From Bacteroidota bacterium (GTDB lineage Bacteria > Bacteroidota > Ignavibacteria > Ignavibacteriales > Ignavibacteriaceae): a stretch of DNA of 64,000 nucleotides. A model generated the notes under the pieces. The model ran no database searches. It had not been told where the DNA came from and worked only from the letters and a program-made list of their open reading frames with translations. The position numbers were made by a program, and so were the translations under genes. Below, piece by piece: positions 14,659-46,431 of this stretch. The stretch lies in NCBI GenBank assembly GCA_020161395.1, contig JAIUOE010000002.1:248001-312000 (forward strand), written 5' to 3'. Position 1 is the first letter of the stretch. The number at the start of each line of letters is the position of its first letter.

Positions 14659-14710
<52 letters not shown>

Positions 14711-14792: not shown

Positions 14793-15839
14793 ATGAAACT
14801 TTCAAAGCGTGCATCAAATGGAATGTATTATATAACCTACATTCAGGATGGTAAGCAAGTAAGATTTTCAACAAAAACATCTAATCAAAAAATTGCCAAT
14901 GAAATATTTAAAAAATTTCAGACTGGTAATTATATACCAACCGTTGAATTAAAAAAGGAATCCGTAACTACTAAAAAAAATACAGTTCATTATTTGGTGT
15001 TTCAGTATCTGAAATATGCTGAAAAACATTTCACCAGTGAAACAATGGTATCTGTAAAATCTCATATGAAAACCTTATTAAATAAGACTCCCCAAAATAT
15101 GGATATAACTGATTTAACCTTTCAAAAACTGAATGAGATTGTAAATAATCAGTGTTCACCATATCAATCCCTTTTATGCAGGAATTATCTGAACATGCTT
15201 TTTAACTGGTTAATCGACAATGGATATTTTACTGGTGTTAATCCAGTTGCTAAAATTAAAAAACCAAAGATAGTTCAAAAGTTACCTTGTTATATTGGTG
15301 TGCCTGAACTTGAATTAATCTTGAATGAAACTAAAAATCTAAATTTTGATATTAGATCATTAACATTTGATATCACTCTTTTTGCATTTTACACAGGAAT
15401 GCGACTTAATGAAATTACATCATTGCAGTGGAATCAAGTTAATTTTGATACTGGAACAATTAAACTCGATAACCAGACTTCAAAAACAAAGAGTGGTAAG
15501 GTTAGAGTAATACCGATTTCATCTAAAATTTTACCAATGTTACTACATCGGTATGAAAATAGATCACTGGATACCATGGTATTTAATCATTCATTTAGCA
15601 CTAAAAATTTTAATGACCTTATATCTAAAAATTTTAAAAAGTGCATCAAAAGACTTCCCCAACTGAATCAAAAAATACATTTTCATACCCTTAGACATAG
15701 CTTTGCATCCCAACTAATATTACATAATGTAAATCTGCTGGTAGTAAGTAAGTTGATGGGTCACAGTAAACTTTCAACAACTTTAGTATATGCACATGTA
15801 CAAGATAATTTGTTAACCGATGCAATAAACACACTATAA
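14793..15839 (+). CDS. int: Tyrosine-recombinase integrase
   Basis: The protein has 348 aa. An N-terminal arm-binding/SAM-like region (about residues 1-165) precedes the catalytic domain. Visible active-site residues are Arg204 (GMRLNE), the beta-hairpin Lys in TKSGKVR, His298 and Arg301 (HTLRHS), His324 (GHSK) and Tyr333 (VYAHV). It recombines the attP core with the tRNA-Ala gene. It is the only clear rightward gene together with the next one, and sits 83 bases from attL. No excisionase was recognised; the RHH protein at the other end is a candidate. Confidence 0.95.
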   Translation: MKLSKRASNGMYYITYIQDGKQVRFSTKTSNQKIANEIFKKFQTGNYIPTVELKKESVTTKKNTVHYLVFQYLKYAEKHFTSETMVSVKSHMKTLLNKTPQNMDITDLTFQKLNEIVNNQCSPYQSLLCRNYLNMLFNWLIDNGYFTGVNPVAKIKKPKIVQKLPCYIGVPELELILNETKNLNFDIRSLTFDITLFAFYTGMRLNEITSLQWNQVNFDTGTIKLDNQTSKTKSGKVRVIPISSKILPMLLHRYENRSLDTMVFNHSFSTKNFNDLISKNFKKCIKRLPQLNQKIHFHTLRHSFASQLILHNVNLLVVSKLMGHSKLSTTLVYAHVQDNLLTDAINTL

Positions 15840-30682: not shown

Positions 30683-32539
30683 TTACCACCTTTTTGCATA
30701 AGATTGTCTGTGTAATTTTTGTACTACCTGTTGTTGCTGTGGCTGTGGAACTGCTGTGACCTTTTCAATCATCTTTTCATTTTCAGACTGTTCCAATTCC
30801 ACATTGCGTTCTCTTTTTTCAGTATTTTCCAAAAGTAGTTTCCAGTTCACATTCAAAGTTTTCAACCCATGCAAGGCATATACCATACAGTCTAAGACTT
30901 CATTGTTTGCTTTTTCACTAATCTTTTCATAATACGCCTTTCCCTGTTTGGATTTTACCATACGCTCTGAAAAAAACTGATTAAAAAATCTTTCATCGCA
31001 TATGTCTTTATGCCAATGTATTACACCGCCACCAGACTTTTTCAATATCTTTGCTCTCTGATACAGCATAGTTTTTGCACTAATTGTGCCTACAAAATAC
31101 AATGGTACTCTGTAACGGTTTTTAAAACTGGGTCTGTAATCGCATACACTCCGTATGTTATCGCCTGAACCTTTAATTGGGTATACTTTATTGTGAATGT
31201 TGTTTTTGCAAAATTGATATACTGCATCCGTATTATGTCCACCAGAGTCTATGTTTGTTATCGTAATATTGCGTTCAATAATATATTTTTCCACATCTGT
31301 CCAAAATTCAGGTAGGCTGGGATTCCCAGGAAATATAGGTCTATCAAGTATCCAACTCTCTTCATTATTATCCCAACCAACTAATACACCTTCCACTCGT
31401 GAATCTTGTGTGTCCAAACCTAATGTTGTAATTACATAGTCTTTTGTATCCCTACTGAACTCTTCAACTCTTGTTAATATCTCTGGTATATCAACATCTG
31501 AACTGTAATCCTCTTCCCAAGGCAATGCAAGAGTAGTATTACGGAATACTTGTATCTTAGAGTAGTCACCTGCCTTTGCTAATTCATTAGCCTCAACAAA
31601 TCTTTTTACTATGTCATCCCAACTTGAAAATGGTGAATACAACTCATTTATATGGAATCCAACAGATTTTTTTGTATTAGATGCAACCCATTTTCCCTTT
31701 TCCACCATTTCATTTTTATGTTTTTCATAGATTTTAGTGGAGCAATTAGGACATATATAATGTATATCGTCTGTGTTTCCATCTGTTTCAGTCCATCGCA
31801 TTTGCTTAAAATCTAAAGGCTGGAAGTGTCCACAATTAACACATGGTACATGGAAATATTGTTGATTTGTATTTTGGAATTCATGCCAGATTTTTGAAGT
31901 TTCAATGTTCGCTGGTGAACTTGCCATTATAATTTTACGATTCCTTGCATATGTCTTAGTTCTCTGGGATGCAATTTGAACTGGATCACCTTCCACATTA
32001 TCGGAATACCTATCCACTTCATCGAGTATGAGATACCTAATTGCAGCAGATGCGAGACCCCCAGGTGAATTACTACCAACATGAGTAATTGAACCACCAG
32101 CATACTCGACATAGTCGAGCGTATTACCAGCTTTCCTTGAATCCATATCCACTGTACCAGCAAGAACTGGCATATCTCGTAGCATACTACGAAATCTTGT
32201 TTTCACATATTTTGTTGCCATTTTCAAACTATAATGAACATACAATGTTGGGGATGGGTCTTCCACTATTTGATAAATTAAAAAGTTTGACAGGATTTGT
32301 GATTTTCCAATTTGACTACTGGCTACTATTACAACTTGTCGATTCAATGGGTCACTTATGGAATCTAATATATCTCTCTGAAAACTAATGCATTGAAATT
32401 GACCTGTTTCAGCAGCATACGCAGATGAAAGAACAATGTTTTCCTCACTCCATTTTGAAAGTGGAATGGTTTTTTTAGTCTGGATATCCTTTATTTTATT
32501 AAAAAAATATTGGTCAAATTTTTCATTTCCCCTGAACAT
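30683..32539 (-). CDS. terL: Terminase large subunit (GpA family)
   Basis: The protein has 618 aa from ATG 32,539 (MFRGNEKF). It has a GpA-type Walker A (ASSQIGKSQ), Walker B (YLILDEVDRY), a zinc-ribbon pair (CVNCGH...CPNCS) and a nuclease domain with LGLDTQDSRVEGVLVGW. It cuts and pumps DNA into the prohead. GpA terminases usually make cos ends. A further 18 codons upstream are in frame but overlap terS, so the internal ATG is preferred. Confidence 0.93.
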   Translation of the reverse strand: MFRGNEKFDQYFFNKIKDIQTKKTIPLSKWSEENIVLSSAYAAETGQFQCISFQRDILDSISDPLNRQVVIVASSQIGKSQILSNFLIYQIVEDPSPTLYVHYSLKMATKYVKTRFRSMLRDMPVLAGTVDMDSRKAGNTLDYVEYAGGSITHVGSNSPGGLASAAIRYLILDEVDRYSDNVEGDPVQIASQRTKTYARNRKIIMASSPANIETSKIWHEFQNTNQQYFHVPCVNCGHFQPLDFKQMRWTETDGNTDDIHYICPNCSTKIYEKHKNEMVEKGKWVASNTKKSVGFHINELYSPFSSWDDIVKRFVEANELAKAGDYSKIQVFRNTTLALPWEEDYSSDVDIPEILTRVEEFSRDTKDYVITTLGLDTQDSRVEGVLVGWDNNEESWILDRPIFPGNPSLPEFWTDVEKYIIERNITITNIDSGGHNTDAVYQFCKNNIHNKVYPIKGSGDNIRSVCDYRPSFKNRYRVPLYFVGTISAKTMLYQRAKILKKSGGGVIHWHKDICDERFFNQFFSERMVKSKQGKAYYEKISEKANNEVLDCMVYALHGLKTLNVNWKLLLENTEKRERNVELEQSENEKMIEKVTAVPQPQQQQVVQKLHRQSYAKRW

Positions 32540-33020
32540 TATCAATATCCCGTAATAGTTTTTCAATTTCAACAGCAATAATGTCTTTTGCAATTACCTC
32601 AATTTCCATCTCTGATCTGTTATCAGTTTTTTTTGAAATTTTGCGTGGCAATTGCTCTAAGGTTTGCTTAATTTTTTGTGTGATTTTTTGAATTGTATCT
32701 TTTATGTGATCAATTTCAACCAGTTCATTTTCCTGTTCTCTTATACTAAGTTCCAATTTTTTAGATTGTAATTCCAACAGTCTTAATTTTGCATCTGTGG
32801 TTGTATTAGCTTTAGTCGTTCCGTTTTTTTGAAAAAAATGAATGCACTCTAACAGGTTGTATTTTTTAGTAGGCTGTATTTTTGGAAAGTCTGAATTTGT
32901 CTGGATTAATTTTTCAATAGTCTGCAATGAGATTTTGAAAATTACTTTCATATCCTGTTTAGTTATTTCAATTTCATTGTATTTCATATCATTTACACTT
33001 TCACTATTTTTCAATCTCAT
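32523..33020 (-). CDS. terS: Terminase small subunit (Nu1-like)
   Basis: The protein has 165 aa. The N-terminal third has a winged-helix/excisionase-like pattern (ITKQDMKVIFKISLQTIEKLI...FPKIQPTKKYNLLECIHFF). A coiled coil (KLRLLELQSKKLELSIREQE) and a helical tail follow. This matches lambda Nu1, which recognises cos and recruits GpA. It overlaps terL by 17 bases. The start may be 33,020 or the ATG 11 codons later; neither has a strong ribosome site. Confidence 0.8.
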   Translation of the reverse strand: MRLKNSESVNDMKYNEIEITKQDMKVIFKISLQTIEKLIQTNSDFPKIQPTKKYNLLECIHFFQKNGTTKANTTTDAKLRLLELQSKKLELSIREQENELVEIDHIKDTIQKITQKIKQTLEQLPRKISKKTDNRSEMEIEVIAKDIIAVEIEKLLRDIDNVQGK

Positions 33021-35572: not shown

Positions 35573-36874
35573 TTATATATCTAATGTTGGATCAAATGAT
35601 GTATCGTTTATAAAAGACTGATTCAAATACTTGTCAGCATTTGCTTTTAATGTAGCTGTATCTATTTTTCCAACTGGTTTCCAATCCGTATCATCTGGCT
35701 CTGTATTTGTTATTATTTTTTTCCTTGCATCTGCACCAAAGGCATCATCTACCATTGCATCTAAATTATCAATCTTTGTATACAATCCATCCCCAAATAA
35801 ACTAAATGCCTTATCATATAAATTATCATTTAATTTTTGTTGTTCAGTCTTTTCAATAATAGGTGTTATAACATCTATTGCGGAATGAACACTATCATTA
35901 TTACTATTTATGTTTTCCTGAGCGGAATCATTAATGGCTGTGGATACATTAATACTATCTAATTTATTATTTTCATCTTCAATTTTTAAATTAGCTGTAA
36001 TATCAGGAAACATTTCATTGTCATCAATTATTTCATTATCGTTTAATTTAATTTTCATATTTTTTTCACTTTCATTATTAGTTAAATTTTCAATTTTAAT
36101 AGCTGTGGTATCAATTGGTAAATCTCTCATTATTATTTTACTCTCAGCTTTAATTTTTTCAAAAATTACATTGTCAGACTGTGGAACATTTTGCAGAGCT
36201 TGCGAAGCAAAATTTTCACTATAAAAAATCGAGCCTTTAGGCGAAGATTTTTTATCAAGTATCCCAGTGGAATTACTATTAAAATTATCACTATTTAAGT
36301 TTTCATTATTAGAGTTTTCATTATTTAAGTTATCATTATTAAGTAGCCCAGTTTTTGACCCCTCAATATTTGACCCCTCAATATTTGACCCCTCAATATT
36401 TGACCCCTCAATATTTGACCCCTGATTTTTAGCCTGTTTTTCAGGGGTCAATTTTTGACCCCTAACTTTAGTATTTGTAGGGTCAATTTTTGACCCCTGA
36501 ATTTTATTATTTGTAGGGTCGGTTTTTGACCCCTGAAATGAGATAGCTGAAATTGTATAGTGGTATCTATTATGTCCAGTCTGATCAATTTTCAAATATC
36601 CATTTTCAATTAAATTTTGTATTCCATCTTTAACCGTATTTTTTGACATACTTAATTTGCGTGCAATTACTTTTTGATTAGGTGAAAACGATTCATTGTT
36701 TGAAAGTAAATACATTAAGATACGGAATGCAGCAGATGTAACATTTGGATTTGTAATTGCTTCATTGTCAGTAGTTGAATAAAATCTTTTTCCAGATTCA
36801 TATAATTTTGAACTTGAATGTAATTTTATCATTGATGCAGTATTAATAGGATTGTAATTTTTTGCAGTTTCCAT
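35573..36874 (-). CDS. Replication initiator with HTH domain and internal origin iterons (lambda O-like)
   Basis: The protein has 433 aa, with AGGAG eight bases before ATG. A winged-helix domain lies at about residues 45-110 (ILMYLLSNNESFSPNQKVIARKLSMS, MSKNTVKDGIQNLIENGYL), like the N terminus of lambda O and plasmid replication proteins. Residues about 115-175 are encoded by the iteron array and read as Gly-Ser-Asn/Lys-Ile repeats. An Asn-rich linker and an acidic C-terminal region without a known motif follow. In lambda O the C-terminal half recruits a helicase loader; no loader gene is seen here, so the host's must be used. Confidence 0.75.
   Translation of the reverse strand: METAKNYNPINTASMIKLHSSSKLYESGKRFYSTTDNEAITNPNVTSAAFRILMYLLSNNESFSPNQKVIARKLSMSKNTVKDGIQNLIENGYLKIDQTGHNRYHYTISAISFQGSKTDPTNNKIQGSKIDPTNTKVRGQKLTPEKQAKNQGSNIEGSNIEGSNIEGSNIEGSKTGLLNNDNLNNENSNNENLNSDNFNSNSTGILDKKSSPKGSIFYSENFASQALQNVPQSDNVIFEKIKAESKIIMRDLPIDTTAIKIENLTNNESEKNMKIKLNDNEIIDDNEMFPDITANLKIEDENNKLDSINVSTAINDSAQENINSNNDSVHSAIDVITPIIEKTEQQKLNDNLYDKAFSLFGDGLYTKIDNLDAMVDDAFGADARKKIITNTEPDDTDWKPVGKIDTATLKANADKYLNQSFINDTSFDPTLDI
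36354..36534. other. Probable phage replication origin: iteron array inside the initiator gene
   Basis: TTTGACCCCT occurs eight times on the plus strand. Five copies start exactly 15 bases apart (36,354, 36,369, 36,384, 36,399 and 36,414), and three more start at 36,454, 36,489 and 36,525. The copy at 36,454 is preceded by its perfect inverse (AGGGGTCAA at 36,443-36,451, 3-base gap), and the last two have imperfect inverse copies. An AT-rich stretch of about 100 bases (36,240-36,350) lies on one side. The layout copies lambda ori inside gene O. Confidence 0.8.
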
Positions 36875-36889
36875 GTGGAATCTCCTTTT

Positions 36890-36987
36890 GTTAAATTGTT
36901 AAAATTTCCATCCTGATTTAAATGTGGGAGCTGTTACACTCCCACTTAACAATTTAACCAAGGATGGTATATTAGCCGTCGCTAATA
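36890..36987 (-). promoter_or_regulatory. Structured leader of the initiator gene with interleaved inverted repeats
   Basis: Four inverted-repeat pairs lie in the 118 bases before the rep ATG: 36,890-36,900 with 36,948-36,958 (11 bp); 36,908-36,914 with 36,961-36,967 (7 bp); 36,924-36,930 with 36,939-36,945 (7 bp); and 36,970-36,976 with 36,981-36,987 (7 bp). The first two pairs interleave, so they form either a pseudoknot or alternative folds. The 36,890-36,900 arm abuts the ribosome site of rep, which suggests translational control. Confidence 0.6.
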
Positions 36988-36991
36988 CCTT

Positions 36992-37019
36992 TATAAATAG
37001 TATTTTATTTTTCCAAACA
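36992..37019 (-). promoter_or_regulatory. Early-type promoter motif ahead of rep
   Basis: The minus strand reads TGTTTGG, thirteen bases, TATTTATA, 118 bases before the rep ATG. The same motif with the same spacing stands ahead of the ribbon-helix-helix gene. Confidence 0.6.
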
Positions 37020-37056: not shown

Positions 37057-37569
37057 TTAATTTATAGATGCCATAAATTCAGTATTCAATAATTCAATTC
37101 CATTGGATATATAATATTGGATAGTCTTTATTTCCATTTGTATCGCTTGTTGTTTAGTTTCAATCCCTTCAATAATTGGTTCAATTTTAAATATTTCATA
37201 AAATGAATTTTTATCAGATACACTTCGAACAAACTCAAAAAACTTTGATTTACGATCTGAACTGAATATAGATGCATAATGACTACTTAATCTACCAGTT
37301 AGTCTATAACCAGTTGAACCGATATATACAAAGTCATTAATCGAGTTGGTTATTTTATAAACTGTATAAGTTGCAGATTTCCTTAACATTAAATGTCTAT
37401 CCCTTGTTGCTGGATCATTATGATATTTTGCTTTAACTCGATTTAGATTAGTCTCTCTAAAATTATTATCATATTTTCGTCTCCATCGTAGGTAATCTAT
37501 TTTATATTGCCTCTTATCTTCATAGTCTTTATAACATGGTATTTCAGGTATTTCATTTGTATTACTCAT
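37057..37569 (-). CDS. GIY-YIG family nuclease
   Basis: The protein has 170 aa from the ATG at 37,569; the GTG three codons earlier is less likely because ATG overlaps the previous stop. The GIY-YIG core shows as YTVYKITNSIN, FVYIGSTGYRLTGRLSSHY with the catalytic Arg, and a distal Glu region. An N-terminal basic helix (about residues 1-45) could bind DNA. It is either a free-standing homing-type endonuclease or a host-attack/repair nuclease. It is coupled to the RHH gene. Confidence 0.85.
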   Translation of the reverse strand: MSNTNEIPEIPCYKDYEDKRQYKIDYLRWRRKYDNNFRETNLNRVKAKYHNDPATRDRHLMLRKSATYTVYKITNSINDFVYIGSTGYRLTGRLSSHYASIFSSDRKSKFFEFVRSVSDKNSFYEIFKIEPIIEGIETKQQAIQMEIKTIQYYISNGIELLNTEFMASIN

Positions 37570-37732
37570 TTGAACCACCTGATTTTTGATTGTTCAAAAA
37601 TGTTTCCACTAATTTTTGAATCAGTGCAGACATAGGAATTAAACTTTCCTGACTGTATAATTTTAATTCATTGATAGTATCCAGTCTCATAGTGATAGTG
37701 ATATTTTTGGATTTTGATGTGTTTGTTTTCAT
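37562..37732 (-). CDS. Ribbon-helix-helix DNA-binding protein
   Basis: The protein has 56 aa. The strand SKNITITMRLDTINELKLY and two helices (NELKLYSQES; MSALIQKLVETFLNN) form the usual ribbon-helix-helix of CopG/Arc-type regulators. GAGG stands eight bases upstream and an early-type promoter motif 41 bases upstream. Its stop overlaps the start of the GIY-YIG gene. It is the first gene of the right end and is the best candidate for the prophage repressor or excisionase-like regulator. Confidence 0.75.
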   Translation of the reverse strand: MKTNTSKSKNITITMRLDTINELKLYSQESLIPMSALIQKLVETFLNNQKSGGSNE

Positions 37733-38188: not shown

Positions 38189-38264
<76 letters not shown>

Positions 38265-44200: not shown

Positions 44201-46155
44201 TAGCCGGTTACAGTTTTGGTGACAAGTATCCAAACTCGAACGGAACTGAAGATATTCTGATCGTCGGAAGAAATCTTACATATATCTCAGGAGCCATCTA
44301 TTCAGGAAATGTGGTGTATGGCAACTCCACCAACCTGCCGATTAATGGTGTTTCCATCAACAACGGAACACTTAGAAAAGATACAGTTATAGACTTCGCT
44401 GCAGCAGCCACTTATCTGCAGAGTCTTTCAACTTCCATCAGCCTCTATCCTGTGAATGGCTCCACCCATTTTGAATGGAACGGACTTGAACTTACAGGTA
44501 CAAATCCATTCCTGAATGTATTCTCGGTATCAGGTGCACAACTCTCCCAGGCAAACAGCGTTGCATTGAATGTACCGAACGGTTCTGCCGTATTGGTGAA
44601 TGTCAGCGGAACAAATGTAAGCTGGACAGGTGGACTTACAGTAACCGGAACAGCAAAAGAAAATGTAATCTATAATTTCTATGAAGCCACTGCTCTCAGG
44701 ATTGTTGGTATCGACATCCGGGGTGCCGTTCTCGCTCCGTTCGCTTATGTTACTTTCCCTTCAGGTGTTCACAATGGACAGATGATAGCATATAATGTAA
44801 CAGGAAGCGGACAGTTTAATCTTTCCAATTTTATGGGAAATATTCCAATAAACAAAGATATCTGGAATGTTGCGGAAATCATGTCCGCCGATCAGTATGA
44901 TCCCGACTCAACCCCCGGTAATAACGATCCTTCGGAAGATGATTATTCCAAAGTAAAGATTCATGTCACTAATATCGTTCCCGCTCCAAATCTCAACTTT
45001 GGAAACTGGAACTACATGACCAACTTTGGGCAGGATCAGATGGTCATGACCATTGCCCGTGACAACACTAATATTCTGTTCGCCGGAACTCTTGGAGGTG
45101 TGGTTTACAAATCCACCGACAACGGTACCAACTGGACACAATTACTCAATACCATTAACAATGCCACCCTTATCTGGAATATAAAAGTACTCCAGAACGG
45201 AAAAATTCTTGCTGCTACCGAACAGGGTATCTATATCTCTTCAGATAATGGTGCAAGCTGGGAACTCTCCACCCTGAACGGGAAAGATACCAGATCGATT
45301 GTTGTTGATTCTCAGGGTATCATCTATGTTTCCACATGGGGAAGTGGTGTTTATAAATCTGCCGACAATGGAAATACATGGACAGCCATGAACACGGGTC
45401 TGACAAATAACAATATCAACACCCTTGCAATAAATGCGCAGGGAACCCTGTTTGCAGGTTCATTCGGTGACGGGGTTTTCAGATCAAACGGCACCGGTTG
45501 GGACCGCCTAACCGGAGACAACCATTTTGTCTGGACACTTTATGTCGACGGACAAGGGTCACTCATCTGTGGTACATATGGAGCCGGTGTCTTCACCTCC
45601 AACGATAATGGATCATCTTGGACACATCTTGCCCTCTCCTCCAACCTGAACTATACCTACGGAATTACAGGTGATCAGAACGATAATCTCTATTTCATCT
45701 CCTTCACGGGAGGTGTCACTGTGAGAAATCACCAGACAGGGGCTTTCAACATGCTTGGCCTTTCAGCTCTTGGCGTTAGTTCGATATATATAAACCAGAA
45801 CAATCAGGTTATTGTCGGTACTTCACCCGGATACCTTTACAAAAACGATTCACCATTGACTTCTGTTCAGACCGAAAACAACGGTATCCCTGCGAAATTC
45901 GAACTGAATCAAAATTTCCCGAATCCGTTTAATCCTTCGACTCAGATAAGTTTCGCTGTACCACAGAAATCATTCGTGTCTCTCAAGATTTACGATGTTC
46001 AAGGTTCTGAAGTGGCAACTTTGGTTAATGAAGACAAGGAACCCGGGTTCTACTCAATCAATTTTGACGCCAAAAAACTGTCGAGCGGTGTTTATTTCTA
46101 TAAAGTTATCGCCGGTGACTTTAACGCAGTAAGAAAAATGATTTTACTCAAGTAA
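41245..46155 (+). CDS. Giant T9SS cargo protein with DUF11 repeats, inserted anchor-A domain and BNR-like repeats
   Basis: The protein has 1,636 aa with a signal peptide (about 1-34). A DUF3344-like beta domain lies at about 55-330. Five DUF11 repeats follow (each with a GxxVxYTxxVxNxGP core). The fifth is interrupted at about residues 942-1,205 by a choice-of-anchor-A/collagen-binding-like domain (GPATGFNLFVLNDF, GAAIGRDV-like) and resumes with NVAEIMSADQYDPDS. Five BNR/YCF48-like blades (YKSTDNGTNW) follow at about 1,250-1,520, then the T9SS sorting domain. It is probably a cell-surface adhesin. Confidence 0.85.
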   Translation: MNNMPNNKTIFSKVIAIAMFLALLLTGTPEIFSQVTTPFQPRFQSNEKGDIQIFGNALLKCPAGNCGGNNNSYSMVNIDIDSDASTFNSSSANFTLPAGATVLWAGLYWNGISTNSARNTALFKTPASGGYVSLTGITYDNSYGYQGFKDVTSLVQAGGTGTYITANVRTNTGTNTWAGWALVVVYRDPSKPQRNLTVFDGLANVSTSNANVNITISGFTTPLFGPVNVALGVVAYDGDADLTGDALKFNNQVISNGLNPASNFFNSTISRFGTLITDKNPNYANQLGLDIDIVDATGKLSNGQTSAVLNLTTGGESYNPGVVTTVIDIFAPDINITKNFTDLNGGSVTPGDTLLYTVSLVNNGQDAANKVVVVDSIQNYMTYLPGSMVVTSGANSGNKTDAAGDDQAFFASGKVNFNLGSGATSSTGGNLNPGESTAVSFKVVTDQPLPDSLSANNFALATYKSQSIPIRDYSSQSATVTAPIISLSDLSLTKTVSNSAPVVGSNIVYTVKVTNSGPEIATSVSVNDLLPSGLQFVSYSSSTGTYDDATGDWVIGTMNPGRTDSLRITVLVNGTTGITNFAEVKSLDQTDPDSSPNNGNPAEDDYASVSINPVNSADLKIRKLVTPANPTVGSTVTYTITVSNDGPGNATNVMVNDKLPAGISYVSHTASQGSYVPATGDWNIGTINNAGDVVLTLVGTKTSPNIITNIAEITAADQSDPFPLDRKDSATIPIQVADLSISKSVSPQAPQYGQQATFRVVLKNNGPTAATGVIAQDSLVSGLSYVSSTVTQGVYDPVSGEWFIGTIANGDSVVLLITVNITSSIGLTNTASIKFSHEIDPTLGDRTASVNFTAASSDLSILKTVDDANPGDGTTINYTITITNNGPSASTNSTVYDKLPNGLVYQSHSTSQGLYNIATDEWETGPIPSGGSATLHITAKVIFDSLSATVINLGPATGFNLFVLNDFSAPSSDVEGKAAIGRDVNVAGYSFGDKYPNSNGTEDILIVGRNLTYISGAIYSGNVVYGNSTNLPINGVSINNGTLRKDTVIDFAAAATYLQSLSTSISLYPVNGSTHFEWNGLELTGTNPFLNVFSVSGAQLSQANSVALNVPNGSAVLVNVSGTNVSWTGGLTVTGTAKENVIYNFYEATALRIVGIDIRGAVLAPFAYVTFPSGVHNGQMIAYNVTGSGQFNLSNFMGNIPINKDIWNVAEIMSADQYDPDSTPGNNDPSEDDYSKVKIHVTNIVPAPNLNFGNWNYMTNFGQDQMVMTIARDNTNILFAGTLGGVVYKSTDNGTNWTQLLNTINNATLIWNIKVLQNGKILAATEQGIYISSDNGASWELSTLNGKDTRSIVVDSQGIIYVSTWGSGVYKSADNGNTWTAMNTGLTNNNINTLAINAQGTLFAGSFGDGVFRSNGTGWDRLTGDNHFVWTLYVDGQGSLICGTYGAGVFTSNDNGSSWTHLALSSNLNYTYGITGDQNDNLYFISFTGGVTVRNHQTGAFNMLGLSALGVSSIYINQNNQVIVGTSPGYLYKNDSPLTSVQTENNGIPAKFELNQNFPNPFNPSTQISFAVPQKSFVSLKIYDVQGSEVATLVNEDKEPGFYSINFDAKKLSSGVYFYKVIAGDFNAVRKMILLK

Positions 46156-46226
46156 TGCAGTAATCCAATAATGCAGTAATGCAGTAATTTTTGTGGCATC
46201 CGGGGTTCGGGTGCCATTTTTTTTTG
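46156..46226 (+). terminator. Short-repeat tract and terminator after the DUF11 cargo gene
   Basis: TAATGCAG recurs three times within 35 bases after the stop. TGGCATCC (46,194-46,201) then pairs with GGGTGCCA (46,209-46,216) before a T9 tract. Confidence 0.75.
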
Positions 46227-46431
46227 CTTCCATTCCCGTCCCACAACCATTATAATTTCGTGGAAAAAAAGTTAATTTTCCCTGAAACTGTGCTGTACCT
46301 CACATATATATCCGATGACTTAAAAAAATATCTTCCAATCAGAAAAAAAATGTAAAAATTAACTTTGATTGCAATAATACTTTGATTACATTAATGTAGC
46401 TAAATTTTAATAATCAGTTAACCGTCGAATA

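Follow-up and report, generated by a model that had tools for sequence, protein, structure and literature searches.

A probable replication origin inside the gene of a prophage's own candidate initiator

Introduction

In the O gene of phage lambda, the segment for the DNA-binding domain, the repeats and the AT tract follow one another in this order in the direction of transcription. The lambda origin lies in the middle of that gene, and its iterons, which are accompanied by an AT tract, are each an imperfect inverted repeat (PMC7466680). In phage phi80, the sequence record marks four binding sites for gp15 within gene 15. In the RepA_N plasmid pSK41, the initiator has an N-terminal winged helix-turn-helix (wHTH), the origin is central in the rep gene, and the linker encoded there is dispensable; in pPR9, an N-terminal PF13730 part has been exchanged along with the origin region, and replication is autonomous (PMC5703833). 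In phage SPP1, oriL is located in gene 38, where the origin-binding protein recognises direct repeats within the gene that encodes it, and an AT-rich region adjoins them (PMC6316719). The arrangement is already known, and the prophage described here is a well-supported new example of it.

Results

The window analysed here is a stretch of 64,000 nucleotides from an Ignavibacteriaceae genome (contig JAIUOE010000002.1, positions 248,001 to 312,000), to which the coordinates below refer. It contains a prophage of about 23.5 kb (14659-38240) flanked by 52-bp copies of a tRNA-Ala 3' end (14659-14710 and 38189-38240), in which genes for an integrase (14793-15839), a GpA-type terminase, a portal, a capsid-protease, a tape measure and an amidase were recognised. 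Note that the IMG/VR entry IMGVR_UViG_3300026302_000094 is 100% identical to the prophage over every compared stretch and enters the same host flank, and therefore represents the integrated prophage itself, from this strain or a near-identical one. (Contig C3 of G000, which belongs to the same genome as the window, encodes at 44581-46422 another GpA-type terminase, diverged to 31% identity, which is probably part of another prophage.)

The candidate initiator gene, rep (35573-36874, minus strand), encodes a protein of 433 amino acids. Rep matches HTH_36 (PF13730) at 2.9e-07 and 30.6 bits, over the curated Pfam cut-off of 25, as well as the replication families phrog_1456, phrog_186, phrog_8102 and phrog_270; by PF13730 and the PHROGs, the gene belongs to a replication-initiation family with a DNA-binding domain, as the host genes of intragenic origins do. 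The match to phrog_186 (DnaD-like helicase loaders) covers residues 35-207 only, the C-terminal part being unmatched, and a DnaD_N match scores under its cut-off. The winged helix-turn-helix domain (residues 46-94; 36593-36739, minus strand) is placed by the Pfam match and by a low-confidence structural model (pLDDT 50), which predicts a helix-helix-helix-strand-strand order for the N-terminal domain. A sequence search of the PDB with Rep gave nothing beyond chance matches and weak wHTH ones.

Eight exact copies of AGGGGTCAAA are present in rep, and every one of them falls within this single 433-aa ORF. In the plus-strand form, TTTGACCCCT, they start at 36354, 36369, 36384, 36399, 36414, 36454, 36489 and 36525, and an inverted copy with one mismatch (9/10) starts at 36443. 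The first five form a tandem at exact 15-bp steps (36354-36423, minus strand; codons 151-174), in which successive units create TTGA-GGGG-TCAA dyads between them. The three non-tandem copies are 35-36 bp apart, and each forms one half of a 21-bp dyad, the left arm, with the right arm worn in two cases: the dyad at codon 114 (AGGGGTCAAAAACCGACCCTA; 36514-36534, minus strand) has a degenerate second arm, that at codon 126 (AGGGGTCAAAAATTGACCCTA; 36478-36498, minus strand) is near-perfect, and that at codon 138 (AGGGGTCAAAAATTGACCCCT; 36443-36463) is perfect and is read in another frame (RGQKLTP).

Initiator-type repeats inside the gene go beyond chance: the array reaches the prophage-wide maximum for one 10-mer within 200 bp, which is eight copies, and in 2000 codon-shuffled versions of rep no 10-mer exceeded five copies (mean 2.2). 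A sequence scan and these shuffles thus confirm what an earlier, sequence-only reading had reported, namely eight copies, five of them in 15-base phase, inside rep. That reading had placed the feature at 36240-36534; the array is real, with limits corrected to 36354-36534 for the repeats and 36266-36343 for the AT-rich tract. It had also described the repeats as encoding Gly-Ser-Asn-Ile, which holds for four units, GSNI(E), the others being QGSK and, at codon 138, RGQK. (An Rfam match to MIR1515 over the array scored under the curated threshold and was discarded as a hairpin artefact of the dyads.)

Directly downstream of the repeats within rep is the AT-rich tract (36266-36343, minus strand; codons 178-203), a candidate unwinding region made of five 15-bp units that encodes the Asn-rich stretch NNDNLNNENSNNENLNSDNFNSNS. 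Its 15-bp period (lag-15 identity 0.73) was reached by 0 of 5000 codon shuffles. The tract is 81% AT over 70 bp. Among the windows of this AT-rich prophage it ranks in the top 3%, yet not at the extreme; an AT-rich tract stands beside the repeats, as in other intragenic origins, with an AT content that is moderate for the prophage. GC skew gave no informative origin mark.

Seven of the eight repeat copies read CAG GGG TCA AAA (QGSK), while the copy at codon 138 differs in frame and reads GTT AGG GGT CAA AAA TTG ACC CCT (VRGQKLTP). The Gly codon is GGG in 7/7 in-frame copies versus 31/335 (9.3%) in fifteen other prophage genes, and in 3/3 of the non-tandem in-frame copies (p=0.0009). The tandem copies cannot be counted as independent, so most weight falls on the frame change and on the spaced copies. 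The repeats have very probably been kept as DNA words even where the protein changes as a result. The suggestion that DNA function has shaped the protein is therefore supported by the frame change, by the use of GGG throughout and by the multi-frame repeats in initiators of the same type (below).

Diverged homologues of rep were found neither among 97 relatives, nor among 164 genomes of the order (searched with phrog_1456), nor in the genome contig collection, and phages and plasmids yielded no rep homologue beyond about 30% identity; the sole IMG/VR match to rep is 100% identical. Structural genes of the prophage, used as queries, reached no related prophages, and an alignment-based viral scan gave no stretch of sufficient conservation.

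A broader comparison was made with 48 distinct winged-helix initiator genes, obtained from PF13730 and phrog_186 searches of the phylum, with 105 neighbouring ORFs of the same loci as controls; sets of exact 9-mer repeats were called significant when matched in at most 5 of 200 codon shuffles. Significant in-gene repeats were present in 13/48 initiator genes, as opposed to 1/105 neighbouring ORFs (the neighbours are shorter on average, for which the shuffle null compensates partly), and 35 of the 48 initiator genes have no significant exact 9-mer set. The surveyed repeat sets are mostly directly 3' of the DNA-binding domain. Among 17 genes with sets at a threshold of at most 10/200, the words occupy two or three frames in 16, versus 42% of shuffle-derived sets, and the median span is 34 codons, versus 184 in shuffle sets; in the 30 codons that follow, Asn is at 16% versus 6% (p=0.002) and AT at 60% versus 54% (p=0.0025). 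For example, CAACCAACG occurs in three frames in L066, L086 likewise has words in three frames, and L042 has GGACAAAAATGTCC dyads. Of note, codons 102-126 of L058 contain a unit of about 22 bp read successively in three frames (VKKKTSTP, SRRKLLHP, QEENFQ), which is a textbook case of DNA-level selection.

A viral scan for GGGGTCAAA-N6-GGGGTCAAA returned 15 other contigs. Only L096 and L101 have the pair inside PF13730 genes, directly after the domain; most of the 15 were rejected as structural-protein repeats (e.g. L100, L102) or as lying outside wHTH genes. Within the HTH_36 'O' group, L096 and L101 were tested for the PF13730 domain and have it. Both share with rep the exact 9-bp word GGGGTCAAA, the 15-bp step and the position after the PF13730 domain, and L096 has in addition the peptide EGSNIEGSNI in common with Rep. 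L096 is homologous to replication protein O of SfII, Klebsiella, Yersinia and E. coli phages, and it resembles the C-terminal half of phi80 gp15. In the lambdoid O-type genes of SfII, Klebsiella P7641, Yersinia YeP1 and Phi06, as in rep, this position within the gene is occupied by 15-bp units, which are based, like those of L096 and L101, on TGANNNNTCA. In the SfII-type O genes the Ser codon is TCA in 22/25 cases in repeat units versus 40/179 elsewhere (p=2e-10, uncorrected for relatedness), and the tandem units of rep fit the same dyad as these arrays, TTGA-GGGG-TCAA. Related phages, which the sequence-only reading had expected to have repeats at the same place, do have them there in L096, in L101 and in the SfII type. 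These proteins differ from Rep in that the winged helix is about 25-40% identical over 40-61 residues and the C-terminal parts are unrelated. In Nebkiss/Gaia gp66, the closest annotated phage protein, repeats are near chance. (A GGGGTCAAA pair at a 15-bp step also occurs in L093 at about 3350, L094 at about 4130 and L103 at about 1265, either close to the end of a gene or immediately downstream of one, the genes concerned ending in helix-turn-helix-like segments of the form '(S/G)K(S/T)KNT(V/I)R', a second layout with the same word.)

Compared with the described systems, rep resembles lambda O/ori in having a mid-gene origin candidate with an N-terminal DNA-binding part, then iterons, then an AT-rich tract, with a step of 15 bp versus about 20 in lambda and phi80. 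The proposal that the plan equals that of lambda O/ori is well supported by the anatomy and the relatives, but membership of the lambda O family does not follow at the sequence level: a Pfam scan gave Rep no PF04492 (Phage_rep_O) match, the match to phrog_391 ('O-like') is weak (1e-4), and there is no significant sequence similarity to phi80 gp15. Like the prophage gene, pPR9 rep has repeats followed by 15-bp Asn- and AT-rich units, as found here, and its best 9-mer is not significant in the exact-repeat test. The Pfam scan likewise found neither a RepA_N domain (PF06970) nor a matching C-terminal domain in Rep. Since Rep lacks both the RepA_N and the Phage_rep_O domains, it would work like those systems while being a member of neither family.

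Plasmid initiators of Nostoc and Halotia (pANSO36A and relatives) also have a wHTH followed by 15-bp in-gene repeats, in this case GGGTCATCCATAGGT with a GGGTCA core; they differ from the prophage gene in belonging to plasmids, in their iteron and, in most, in a DnaB-type gene downstream. In Nostoc UHCC 0870, GGGAACACCC occurs in two frames. In Nostoc HK-01 and TCL26-01 the 5-residue period is kept while silent sites drift, which limits a DNA-only reading there.

The sequence-only reading also proposed that, once replication is initiated, this phage depends entirely on its host. The ORFs scanned gave no match to a family of helicases, loaders, primases or polymerases, and no lambda P-like partner gene was recognised in the prophage; SPP1, by comparison, encodes both a helicase and a loader for it. 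Dependence on the host is therefore likely, but four small ORFs that adjoin rep have no assigned function.

Discussion

The array and the adjoining AT-rich tract are very likely a phage replication origin situated within the gene for the cognate initiator, a reading that is strongly supported because the anatomy and the comparison with other replicons both point to it. We infer, by analogy with lambda O, phi80 gp15 and the RepA_N proteins, that the N-terminal winged helix of Rep would bind the array at all eight copies of AGGGGTCAAA, in the dyads as well as in the 15-bp tandem, that the resulting multi-Rep complex would open the adjoining 78-bp AT-rich tract, and that the rest of Rep would recruit host replication proteins. 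On this view, the array translates into a linker peptide, the sequence of which would mostly be a side effect of the DNA sites.

We considered whether the array might instead be a coding tandem repeat grown by slippage, under protein-level selection or none, with no role as DNA. Its five phased units are in frame and nearly identical, as they would be after a recent amplification (which they could be), and some Nostoc relatives retain the peptide period with variable codons. Such an account is nonetheless very unlikely, given that the three spaced copies are not tandem, that one of them is in another frame, that all in-frame copies use a rare Gly codon, that the DNA dyads reach past the repeated peptide and that the similar genes L058, L066 and L086 have words in three frames.

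It is also very unlikely that Rep binds the array mainly for self-repression or for pairing molecules, with replication starting elsewhere. Plasmids have operator/iteron pairs in which dyads are beside direct repeats, and the prophage array looks like such a pair; moreover, the strong RNA structure of the rep leader suggests that rep expression is probably controlled. However, the sites are 340-520 bp inside the gene, distant from a start-site operator, they abut the periodic AT-rich tract, and the studied examples of this layout (lambda O, phi80 gene 15 and pSK41) are origins. A packaging (cos/pac) site recognised by the small terminase, itself with a DNA-binding domain, seems extremely improbable: about 3.3 kb separate the array from the gene of the small terminase (32523-33020), and the large subunit is GpA-type, but the array is in a replication gene rather than next to those for the terminase, and plasmid initiators, which have no packaging, show the same layout.

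The replication-origin reading gives an uncharacterised prophage a probable origin with coordinates. It may reach further, and we lean towards a family-wide rule under which the HTH_36/DnaD-type initiators of phages and plasmids from several phyla have the origin placed in the linker that directly follows the winged helix. The words of the iterons could then stand in any frame, so that the low-complexity linker, including its Asn-rich stretch, would be a translation of the origin. If this rule is true, a protein sequence alone could suffice to locate a replication origin; odd repeats in HTH_36 linkers would be explained, and for many unstudied phages and plasmids the linker could reveal where the origin is. 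The occurrence of the same word in several frames is a simple way to tell DNA-level from peptide-level selection.

Two further observations concern the surroundings of rep. The rep mRNA leader (36862-37015, minus strand), which matched no Rfam family, is predicted to fold far more strongly than its shuffled versions do (z -5.4). A long stem overlaps part of the ribosome-binding site, and this structure likely controls Rep synthesis. Directly upstream of rep is a gene for a GIY-YIG endonuclease (37057-37578), possibly a homing endonuclease adjoining the candidate origin.
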